Shown in pieces: positions 8,503 through 12,181 of a stretch of 39,589 nucleotides of DNA (within the stretch, counting starts at the first letter, position 1; each line of letters begins with the position of its first letter). The stretch is from NCBI GenBank assembly GCA_016783825.1, contig JADHVV010000015.1, positions 1 to 39,589 on the forward strand, given 5' to 3'. The notes beneath the pieces are model-generated. The model did not search any database, had not been told where the DNA came from, and saw nothing but the letters and a program-made list of their open reading frames with translations. This DNA comes from Candidatus Zhuqueibacterota bacterium (GTDB lineage: Bacteria; Zhuqueibacterota; Zhuqueibacteria; Thermofontimicrobiales; Thermofontimicrobiaceae). Position numbers and translations under genes: made by a program.

Positions 8503-8531
8503 TTGACATTTTGGCAGAACAATGCTATATT
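8503..8531 (+). promoter_or_regulatory. Consensus sigma70-type promoter for uvrB
   Basis: TTGACA (8503-8508), 17-nt spacer, TATATT (8526-8531). Confidence 0.75.
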
Positions 8532-8607
8532 TATTTCGCATTATTCTGGTATCAGTTCTATCGTTAATTTTTTTTCGTTGCAAAATTATTTTTATCAAGG
8601 TAACACA

Positions 8608-10602
8608 GTGGCAAAATTTGAGTTAATTTCAGAATACAAACCAACCGGCGATCAACCCAATGCTATTCGGGAACTCACAGAAGGTATTTTCCGGGGAGAT
8701 TCACACCAGACATTGTTAGGAGTAACCGGCAGCGGAAAAACCTACACCATGGCAAATATCATTGCTAATGTGGGCAAACCGGCGATCATTTTATCACATA
8801 ACAAAACATTAGCCGCGCAACTCTACGGCGAATTTAAGGGGTATTTTCCCAATAATGCCGTTGAATATTTCATCAGCTATTATGATTATTATCAACCAGA
8901 AGCTTATGTGGCATCGACCGATACCTATATCGCAAAGGATACATCAATAAATGATGAGATTGACCGATTGCGATTAAAAGCAACCAGTTCCCTAATGCAG
9001 CGCGATGACGTGGTTATAGTAGCTTCAGTATCGTGTATTTACGGTCTCGGCTCTCCCGAAGATTATAAAGCAATGTTAATAACTCTAAAAAAGGGACAAC
9101 GAATCGCCCGCAATACAATTCTCGAAAAATTAGTTGATCTTTATTACACACGTAACGATTTTGACTTTAGCCGCGGCAGCTTTCGGGTTCGGGGGGATGT
9201 GGTTGAAGTTATTCCTGCCTATGAAGAAGAAGGCATTCGCATTGAATTTTTTGGAGATGAAATAGAGAAAATTTCAAAAATTGATACGCTAACCGGAAAA
9301 ATTATCGGTTCCCTGGACTCAGCAGGAATTTATGCGGCAAAACATTATGTCACGACGCAGCCTAAAATTGAAAACGCTATCAAGGAGATAAAAAAGGAAT
9401 TGGAACAGCGGTTAGCCTGGCTTAGAAAGAATAACAAACTGCTCGAGGCGCAGCGATTGGAAATGCGCACCAATTTCGATTTAGAAATGATGATGGAGAT
9501 CGGCAGTTGTTCCGGTATTGAAAATTATTCGCGCCACATAACAGGCAGAGAACCGGGAGACCATCCATATACTTTATTAAATTTTTTCCCCAGCGACTTT
9601 CTCATGTTCATCGATGAGTCGCACGTTACTGTATCCCAGGTTCGGGCAATGTACCACGGTGACAGGTCACGCAAGGAAACATTAGTTGAAAATGGTTTCC
9701 GCTTGCCCTCTGCTCTGGATAATCGTCCGCTCAATTTTCAGGAATTTGAAAATATGCTCAAGCAGGTCGTGTTTGTTTCTGCCACGCCGGGAGAATACGA
9801 ACTGGAAAAATGCGGCGGTGTGGTTGTTGAGCAAATTATCCGTCCCACCGGTCTCATGGAACCGGAAATTGATGTCCGACCAATTAAGGGTCAGATTGAT
9901 GATTTGATTTCGGAAATCAATCTGCGTTCTGAAAAAGGGGAACGAGTGTTGGTTACCACGCTCACAAAACGAATGGCAGAAGATTTAACCGATTACCTCG
10001 CTGACATGAAATTACGGGTTCGATATTTACACTCCGAGGTCAATGTATTGGATCGGGTCAAAATTTTACGCGATTTGCGGTTGGCAGAATTTGATGTGTT
10101 AGTGGGAATTAATTTGCTCCGGGAAGGACTCGATCTTCCCGAAGTTTCTCTGGTTGCTGTTCTCGATGCAGATAAGGAAGGATTTTTGCGATCTGAAACT
10201 TCTCTGATGCAGGTTTCCGGCAGAGCCGCGCGCAATGTAAATGGCAGGGTTATTTTTTACGCCGATAAAATCACTCAATCCATGCAAAAAACAATCGACG
10301 AAACGAATCGCCGCCGAAAAATCCAGCAACAATATAATGAAGAACACGGCATCACTCCCAAAACAATTTATAAATCAGTGGAAGACGTGATGAGTTCTAC
10401 ACGAGTTGCTGATGAAAAAGTGGAAAAATGGGGAACCCGACGAAATAAGTCTCGTCGCTATGACCAACCCATGTCAGCAATGGAACAGACCGAACTCGTT
10501 GAAAAATTGGAACAGGAGATGAAGGACGCTGCAAAAAATCTGGAATTTGAGAGGGCGGCTGAATTAAGGGATGAGATTGAGTGGGTGAAGGACAATAATT
10601 AG
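8608..10602 (+). CDS. uvrB: UvrABC system protein B
   Basis: [50 protein letters not shown]-terminal UVR motif. GTG start at 8608 preferred over the 8503 track start, which overlaps the promoter. Confidence 0.97.
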
Positions 10603-10744: not shown

Positions 10745-11179
10745 ATGCCTCCCAATAAGGAAACAATCGGTAAACTAACGCCAAAATATTCATTTGTTCT
10801 AAATAAATATTCTGACTATAGGGTTAGCAAATGCCCTGATTGCGATTTTAATACTTTTAAAAGAAAATTTCCGCTAGTAATATTTGTTACTAAAGGTGTT
10901 CCAATTACACTTGGACTTACCTGTACATACTGTTCAAAATGTGAGTTAATCATTGCTCATCAACATGAACTTGAAGAAGAACTCTATAAAATTTTTATTG
11001 AAATTGATCCCGAAATGATTGGGAACGAATATTATGTAGTTGGAACAGTGGATAAAAAAATATGGAAAAAGACCATTGGTAAAAAATCAAATTTTACCCA
11101 AATGTTAGAGCATGCAGCTGATTTTAAAGAAGTATTAGAATTAAAATACCAGCCAGCCGGTTGGTACCGTCCCAAATAA
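10745..11179 (+). CDS. Hypothetical protein with paired-cysteine (zinc-ribbon-like) motifs
   Basis: 144-aa ORF with CPDC...CTYCSKC. Confidence 0.6.
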   Translation: MPPNKETIGKLTPKYSFVLNKYSDYRVSKCPDCDFNTFKRKFPLVIFVTKGVPITLGLTCTYCSKCELIIAHQHELEEELYKIFIEIDPEMIGNEYYVVGTVDKKIWKKTIGKKSNFTQMLEHAADFKEVLELKYQPAGWYRPK

Positions 11180-11264: not shown

Positions 11265-11305
11265 ATTTCAAAGGGGGGGTACAAATTGCCACCCCCCTTT
11301 GAAAT
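11265..11305. repeat. Near-perfect 41-nt hairpin upstream of the Bro-N gene
   Basis: ATTTCAAAGGGGGGGTACAAATTGCCACCCCCCTTTGAAAT. Confidence 0.85.
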
Positions 11306-11374
11306 GATTGAGAAAAAACAAGAATGATAAATAACAAAGGAACTGAATTTAATTAAACAAACAGGTGATTTAAA

Positions 11375-12181
11375 ATGACCACTAAAATCGCTGTTTTTAA
11401 GAAAAAAGAAATCAGAAAAACCATTCATAATAATGAGTGGTGGTTTGTAGTGGAAGATGTTGTTTTAGCTCTGACTGATTCAAGAGATCCTAAACAATAC
11501 ATTCAGCGGATGAAACTTAGGGATCCAGAGCTTAAGAAAGGGTGGGTACAAATTGTACATACCCTTTCAATTGAAACAACTGGAGGAAAGCAAAAAATGC
11601 TCTGCGCCAACACCGAAGGCATTTTCCGTATCATCCAATCAATGCCATCACCAAAAGCAGAACCGTTTAAACGCTGGCTGGCAAAAGTTGGTTATGAAAG
11701 AGTGCAGGAAATTGAAGACCCGGAACTTGCCACTAAAAGAACACGTGCCCTGTACAAAGCCAAAGGTTATCCTGATGATTGGATTGAAAAAAGAATGCGT
11801 GGCATTGCCATCAGCGAAGAATTGACCGACGAATGGCAGCAACGAGGCGTAAATGAAGACAGGGAGTACTCCATATTAACTGCAGAAATCTCAAAAGCAA
11901 CCTTTGGCATGACACCAAAAGAGTACAAAGACTTTAAAAGATTAAATAGAGAAAATTTGCGCGATCACATGAACGATCTTGAATTGATATTTTCAATGTT
12001 AGGCGAAGCATCTACAACAGAAATTGCCCTAAACACAGATGCCCAGGGTTTTGAAGAAAACAAAGATGCTGCCCAGAAAGGTGGTGACGTTGCTGGTAAA
12101 GCGAGAAAAGATTTGGAATCAAAAAGTGGCAAAAAAGTTTCCACGAAAAAAAATTATTTAAAGCAGATTAAAGACAAATAA
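11375..12181 (+). CDS. Bro-N domain protein (phage antirepressor-like)
   Basis: WWFVVEDVVLALTDSRDPKQYIQRMKLRD...GGKQKMLCANTEGIFRIIQSMPSPKAEPFKRWLAKVGYERVQEIEDPELA matches Bro-N antirepressor-like proteins. Confidence 0.88.
   Translation: MTTKIAVFKKKEIRKTIHNNEWWFVVEDVVLALTDSRDPKQYIQRMKLRDPELKKGWVQIVHTLSIETTGGKQKMLCANTEGIFRIIQSMPSPKAEPFKRWLAKVGYERVQEIEDPELATKRTRALYKAKGYPDDWIEKRMRGIAISEELTDEWQQRGVNEDREYSILTAEISKATFGMTPKEYKDFKRLNRENLRDHMNDLELIFSMLGEASTTEIALNTDAQGFEENKDAAQKGGDVAGKARKDLESKSGKKVSTKKNYLKQIKDK

Follow-up and report, generated by a model that had tools for sequence, protein, structure and literature searches.

Bro-N genes carry a palindrome that is probably the binding site of their own product

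Bro-N genes of many phyla carry, in the codons just after those of the predicted recognition helix, a palindrome whose arms vary together with that helix. We find it probable that this palindrome is bound, in a residue-specific manner, by a dimer of the protein that its gene encodes, with negative autoregulation as the likeliest use. The gene from which we started lies in the window, by which we mean the whole stretch of DNA that was analysed (39,589 nucleotides, contig JADHVV010000015.1 of a Candidatus Zhuqueibacterota bacterium), and all coordinates are positions in it. The features of this gene, with half-site bases numbered k outward from the three central bases, are as follows.

11375–12181, + strand: Bro-N gene, 268 aa, with a distant DinD-like C-terminus; proposed self-binding protein
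11450–11473, + strand: codons of helix 1 of the predicted helix-turn-helix, residues 26-33 (AlphaFold)
11489–11521, + strand: codons of the predicted recognition helix, residues 39-49, PKQYIQRMKLR (AlphaFold; partial Mantel scan)
11495–11497, + strand: Gln41, a residue that predicts half-site base k4 (Q to T, D to G, G to G; held-out genes 9/9)
11507–11509, + strand: Arg45, a residue that predicts half-site base k3 (D to G, N to T, R/K/V to A; held-out genes 49/53)
11537–11567, + strand: intragenic palindrome AAAGGGTGGGTACAAATTGTACATACCCTTT, the proposed own binding site (in 138 homologues its position is conserved and its arms covary; 53/53 held-out genes)
11546–11558, + strand: core GTACAAATTGTAC of the intragenic palindrome

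The window protein matches the Pfam Bro-N family (PF02498) with 55.8 bits against a cut-off of 25.6 (7.5e-15), and its C-terminus reaches 18.9 bits of the 242 that are the cut-off for DinD (NCBIfam NF008573); judged by these scores it is a distant DinD relative and not a DinD equivalog. It may well be a dimeric helix-turn-helix DNA-binding member of the Bro-N/DinD group. The AlphaFold model (mean pLDDT 88) has helices 26-33 and 39-49 as a helix-turn-helix-like pair, with residues 41 and 45 one turn apart on the second of them. A sequence search of the PDB gave nothing significant. The best fold match there is the DdrC dimer of Deinococcus radiodurans (8u0g, 7qvb, 7udi; Foldseek E 9e-7, probability 1.00), a DNA-damage protein that is dimeric and binds DNA, although identity is only about 12% and the TM-score 0.3-0.5. 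DdrC is reported to bind DNA without sequence specificity, and to condense and circularise it (PMC5436757), which by analogy would count against sequence-specific reading by the window protein. The neighbours of the gene that were examined are uvrB, a 144-aa protein, an HpcH/HpaI aldolase and a 3-keto-disaccharide hydrolase, and no phage gene was recognised adjoining it. The first two precede the Bro-N gene (8503-10602 and 10745-11179); the 144-aa orphan has no Pfam or PHROG match and contains paired cysteines (CPDC, CTYCSKC).

A search in which each species was represented by one genome yielded 80 close relatives, spread over many phyla, and more divergent homologues were added from viral, plasmid, phage and further genome searches. 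Many of these sequences come from draft metagenome genomes, and their start codons are approximate. The 138 distinct Bro-N homologues analysed, from many phyla, have in-gene palindromes at the same codons. When aligned at the protein level, nearly all of them have palindromic DNA here, with arms that differ completely between clades (GTACAAATTGTAC, GGACAAATTGTCC, GTTCAAATTGAAC, AAACGGTTACAAATTGTAACCGTTT, CAACTGGCTACAATTTGTAGCCAGTTG and TTGTCCGAAAAAATCGGACAA are examples), and a paralogue in the host genome (L096) carries a version of its own. The initial annotation had proposed to look for variability at this codon segment, and the peptide does change by clade: GWVQIVHTL, GWGQIATPL, GWGQIVTPL, GYGQIVHTL, GWVQIEHPL, GWAQIESPL and YWGTICTPL, and in remote relatives SQLATICSQLK, NETVTNCNRLK, SELSEKIGQLK and NELYEKIVQLK. 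The reading frame of the palindrome varies as well, as can be seen from KGWVQIVHTL on the one hand and YWGTIC and xLxTxC on the other, and a palindrome that is found in different frames means that the peptide is not the conserved thing.

The pairing of the arms is far beyond what the proteins require. With the protein fixed and the codons redrawn from each gene's own usage, a mean of 10.95 of 13 pairs was observed against 5.95 in the synonymous recodings (140 genes). Fisher's method over the 71 distinct peptides gives p ~3e-113, which is not to be taken literally because the peptides are related. If the null is allowed the best palindrome anywhere in the region, P is still at most 0.05 in 125 of 134 genes and at most 0.01 in 104. 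In alignment A3 the paired fraction is 96.3% against 71.0% after shuffling, with 49 both-side changes against 18, and in alignment A2 it is 89.5% against 81.1%, with 46 against 19. With the partner displaced by 1-3 columns, pairing falls to 24-41% (A3) and 42-64% (A2), and the covariation score was reached by none of 500 shuffles in either alignment. Given the kinship among the genes, all these pairing statistics are a measure of strength and not exact probabilities. Synonymous and nonsynonymous positions covary with each other (GTA..GTA, GGG..GCC, GGA..GTC, GTT..GAA, GCT..GAG).

The arms are also matched to the helix. A partial Mantel scan of the protein columns against the site sequence, controlled for divergence of the C-terminal half, ranked residues 49, 41, 50, 45, 53, 44 and 38 highest among those not encoded by the site itself. 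Residue 45 predicts k3: aspartate goes with G (36/36), asparagine with T (5/5), and arginine (42/42), valine (9/9) and lysine (42/44) with A, the two lysine exceptions sharing Lys45-Val46 and taking C. Residue 41 predicts k4 in the non-YW proteins, where glutamine goes with T (55/55), aspartate with G (23/23) and glycine with G (27/28). This code recurs in the GW frame and in the remote YW clade, in the shifted YWGT frame (L093 and L110 have Asp41 and GGAC among relatives with Gln41 and GTAC), in the GGGQ clade (L086 versus L091) and in a non-coding leader (L138, Asn45 with T). The rules had been framed when 53 further genes were fetched, and in this held-out set the palindrome was found in all 53, k3 was right in 49 of 53 and k4 in 9 of 9. 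The k3 non-matches are a gene in which one half is right, two YWGKIK proteins that take C and so resemble the earlier Lys-Val exceptions, and one residue without a rule.

The codons of helix and site are some 15-60 nt apart. Changes in the two coincide on the C-terminal tree in 35/35 cases, but these are not 35 independent events, as helix and site recombine as one block, and we have discounted this way of counting. That the same rules hold in unrelated contexts, on the other hand, argues against mere linkage. The window gene has a conserved dyad that is matched to its own predicted DNA-binding helix, and the comparison of sequences strongly supports that each protein binds the palindrome in its own gene, with recognition-helix residues 45 and 41 presumably reading the third and fourth half-site bases from the centre.

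There are genes without an internal palindrome, and these carry one in the leader. Two genes of Chlorohelix plasmids (L138 and L140) lack the internal site and have a palindrome just before the ribosome-binding site; that of L138 obeys the rule for its own Asn45, and that of L140 agrees in its central bases with those of the other Lys45-Val46 proteins. Within the DinD branch, the internal sites of L217 (Thiothrix) and L220 (Parabacteroides) are weak and both genes have a palindrome in the leader, and L221 (Bernardetia, plasmid plasm3) has identical arms, CCATTTTTCC/GGAAAAATGG, both upstream and inside. A leader palindrome of at least 10/12 is present in 4/4 genes with a missing or weak internal site against 27/145 others, a descriptive comparison, since those four genes were noticed first. 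Read from the sequences, the pattern is what would be expected of an operator that can take up either of two places in its gene. Matches of a gene's own core in its upstream DNA were considered too, and several perfect ones turned out to be artefacts of a start codon chosen 3' of the internal site, so that only that of L138 is real; for the window gene the own-core upstream match is 12/17, no better than what the cores of other clades give.

We propose that the protein encoded by the gene binds at the intragenic palindrome, and that a dimer bound there, in the first 200 nt of the gene, would block transcription and thereby give negative autoregulation. Where a second site is present upstream, as in the window and on the Bernardetia plasmid plasm3, looping to it could also take place. 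Repression is suggested by the position of the site and by precedent. Lambda O dimers bind inverted-repeat sites inside the O gene, four iterons that make up the replication origin (PMC5043065). The likeness is that a DNA-binding protein has its sites inside its own gene, but Bro-N genes have one palindrome each, beside the recognition-helix codons and movable to the leader. I-TevI represses its own gene from an operator that overlaps the promoter and resembles the homing target (PMC3943268), and control of the own gene via a site near the reading frame is what we propose for Bro-N as well. The Bro-N proteins are however without an evident nuclease or homing site, and their site is normally in the coding sequence, with coevolution of helix and site. 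Both halves of the mechanism, sites in the own gene and autorepression, thus occur in nature. Phage antirepressors (Ant, with Bro-N and KilAC) have the Bro-N domain in common with the window protein (PHROG matches), but the one that was checked, from an Oceanotoga phage (L204), has no strong palindrome at the equivalent place. In the literature that we searched, with most subscription journals outside it, no report was found of an in-gene palindrome or own-gene operator for Bro-N, DinD or DdrC.

The palindrome could instead work as an mRNA hairpin, bound by the own protein or by none, that controls translation or decay. Both window copies fold well as RNA, as had been noticed from the start (upstream -24.1 kcal/mol, z -4.9; intragenic -18.3 kcal/mol, z -4.6; no shuffle equalled either). 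The leader sites of L138, L140 and L217 are near the ribosome-binding site, and the mismatches on the sense strand are G-U in 27 cases against 11 A-C, with 10 of the 27 at one and the same pair. The specificity, however, resides in the recognition helix of a helix-turn-helix, which typically is a reader of double-stranded DNA. The strictest pairing is found at k2-k4 and k10-k11, with k5-k9 lax in between, as would be expected from two contact zones rather than from a helix selected for stability, and the centre in the main class is itself symmetric (CAAATTG), which a loop does not need. We consider the RNA alternative unlikely and think that a dimer on DNA is what the palindrome serves.

Self-recognition could also have a role outside transcription, if a DdrC-like protein were to bridge or anneal copies of the gene that encodes it and so aid spread, recombination or the exclusion of relatives. 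It is in line with this that scattered members of many phyla have the gene, with 70-80% identity, and that it is often broken or multicopy, that DdrC anneals DNA besides condensing and circularising it (PMC5436757), and that the lambda origin is found within the O gene (PMC5043065). The leader copies near ribosome-binding sites nevertheless fit regulation better, and the genes come without a demonstrated mobility gene, terminal repeat or empty site, which leaves this alternative quite improbable.

Template-switch correction of quasi-palindromes is an existing mutational process that can keep a stretch palindromic without selection, and the variable peptide suggests that the stretch may tolerate it. 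It predicts neither that the bases of the palindrome are set by helix residues encoded outside it, a rule that holds in the held-out genes as well, nor that leader sites replace internal ones, nor that k5-k9 are lax beside a strict k2-k4 and k10-k11, and the chance that it accounts for our observations is very slight. Covariation at the protein level only, with helix residues touching palindrome-coded residues in the fold, would suit the AlphaFold model, where the coded residues come directly after the recognition helix, but it can hardly be credited when synonymous positions covary with nonsynonymous ones, and as a whole explanation it is refuted by the same base rules in different frames and in a non-coding leader.

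Self-binding at the intragenic palindrome, the reading we prefer, does not extend with the same force to the upstream palindrome of the window, the region of which has the following features.

11265–11305, no strand: upstream palindrome, ~70-110 nt before the ATG; putative hybrid site
11299–11328, + strand: weak sigma-70-like match TTGAAA-18-AATGAT, 9/12 matches, overlapping the right arm of the upstream palindrome

The initial annotation had described two 31-nt palindromes, at 11270-11300 and 11537-11567, and both are there. They agree at 24/31 positions as claimed, the intragenic copy encodes KGWVQIVHTL, the upstream copy in the same frame gives KGGVQIATPL and a stop, and a repeat finder recovers the pair as a 38-nt family at 76%. 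To call them the same palindrome is nonetheless an overstatement, as the left halves are alike (GGGTACAAATTG) but the right half holds 6 of the 7 mismatches. The upstream 31-nt copy is the centre of the larger palindrome at 11265-11305, which has perfect 14-nt arms ATTTCAAAGGGGGG / CCCCCCTTTGAAAT around 13 nt. Its left half GGGTACAAATTG (11277-11288) is of the type predicted for the window protein with its Gln41 and Arg45, and its right half CAAATTGCCACCCCCCTTT (11282-11300), 19 nt, is identical to the site of the GWGQIATPL clade, which has Gly41 and Asp45. The host genome, a 4.54-Mb draft of 260 contigs, has one copy of the upstream palindrome. GGGTACAAWTTGTACCC is matched best there by the window gene's own site and by the one within a paralogue (C142), and a match in a coding sequence of C258 has an equal number of mismatches (2).

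Nearly all homologues that were compared are without the upstream copy. The initial annotation had named such absence, together with a lack of binding or structural effect, as evidence against its proposal, and the first of these does speak against the pair, though not against the internal site. Among the other Bro-N loci that keep the internal site intact, such an element is present in L050 alone, where it is wholly of the GWGQIATPL clade's type, and the upstream hairpins of both the window and L050 match the code of their own protein incompletely. A role of both copies as operator or RNA sites in autoregulation is thus well founded for the intragenic one, through covariation, the recognition code and the leader copies, and much less so for the upstream one. 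The upstream palindrome is probably, as far as its sequence tells, a second, asymmetric operator or a relic, and not a part of what is conserved. The alternative origin offered initially, a captured gene fragment, keeps some plausibility from the hybrid of two half-site types. That the copy is a functionless relic of another Bro-N gene fragment is a serious prospect, which we would put somewhat below even. Its right 19 nt equal the site of another clade, such copies are found in just two loci that keep the internal site, and that of L050 is of a type that its own protein should not prefer. Against a relic, the perfect 14-nt arms reach past the coding homology (ATTTC/GAAAT), where decay would be expected if they were unused, the distance of ~70-110 nt to the start suits an operator, and no other gene remnant is seen here, though truncated Bro-N genes do exist (L212).

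Premature termination at 11300, which had also been suggested, was not borne out; there is no T-run after the hairpin, a terminator scan called none there, and we have rejected the upstream hairpin as a terminator. It was likewise rejected as a member of a REP-like repeat family, being single-copy, with the similar hairpins belonging to another family: the 11 other AAAGGGGG..CCCCCTTT hairpins in the host genome differ from it in centres and flanks. These eleven dispersed hairpins, of the type ACATCCCCCTTCAAAGGGGGACTTTTAGCGATTCCCCCCTTT (e.g. L191, L193-L202), form a palindromic repeat family that in centre and flanks is unrelated to the window palindrome. The sigma-70-like match is one of 3, against 1.4 expected in shuffles, and is not evidence of a promoter. 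Another palindrome, ACCATTCATAATAATGAGTGGT, covers the conserved IHNNEW codons of the window gene (11420-11441) and is longer and near-perfect in L016, L017 and L035 (AAAAACCATTCATAATAATGAATGGTTTTT); it could be codon chance or a second site.

The DinD protein of E. coli (PRK11525) has a Bro-N N-terminus, a related C-terminus and the same kind of in-gene palindrome as the window protein, although the latter falls far below the DinD cut-off and the known operator of E. coli dinD is that of LexA (PMC3009722). By Pfam, DinD of K-12 is a Bro-N protein with 32.4 bits. Its gene has the 30-bp palindrome GACCATTTCGAGGAGATCCTCGATATGGTC, built as GACCATTTCGAGGA-GA-TCCTCGATATGGTC, in codons 59-68, with 13/14 pairs and a synonymous P of 0.001. 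Among relatives of dinD the arms change (CGTG/CACG, GTTGA/TCAAC, TTCC/GGAA, CCCGA/TCGGG) and 9-14 of the 14 pairs are formed, and a second E. coli allele is weak (10/14 pairs, synonymous P ~0.1). In E. coli genomes dinD occurs in distinct allele groups (~87% and 96-100% identical to that of K-12), and both the sequence and the quality of the internal palindrome vary from group to group. A bold extension, which we think rather unlikely, would be that the whole Bro-N/DinD superfamily, perhaps with DdrC, is built on self-recognition by a simple residue-base code, and that this maintains, spreads or polices gene copies (by bridging, gene conversion or exclusion), beyond the tuning of expression.

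If each protein indeed binds its own gene, the genes are a natural record of protein-DNA coevolution, in which protein and target come from one short stretch of DNA, and the residue-to-base code can be tested directly. An unrecognised operator is predicted inside a textbook SOS gene, E. coli dinD, the function of which is poorly understood. An operator in the coding sequence would let a gene carry its own control between genomes and operons, which suggests how a gene that jumps phyla or enters foreign operons could stay under that control. There is also a warning in these results, in that a DNA site can be what lies behind an unusual conserved peptide such as KGWVQIVHTL or KGWGQIATPL.

Some observations on the surroundings of these genes can be added. 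Broken, truncated or tandem copies are many (e.g. G060, G055, G074, G106 and G312), a sign of frequent gain and loss. L212 has a truncated Bro-N gene (~1150-1470) directly 5' of a DinD gene, and the palindromes that the two genes carry are different. The Bro-N/DinD genes of L138, L140 and L217 are directly or shortly 3' of parB on plasmids. On plasmid pACLO of Arcobacter cloacae (L137, NZ_CP053834.1) a Bro-N homologue with a perfect internal palindrome sits between cas4 and cas1 in a type I-B CRISPR operon. In L049, finally, a 57-nt hairpin element, TAGGGGACG...CGTCCCCTA, is present as a direct repeat on either side of the Bro-N gene, at -288..-232 and +1212..+1268 from the gene, and is reminiscent of the REP elements mobilised by Y1 transposases.
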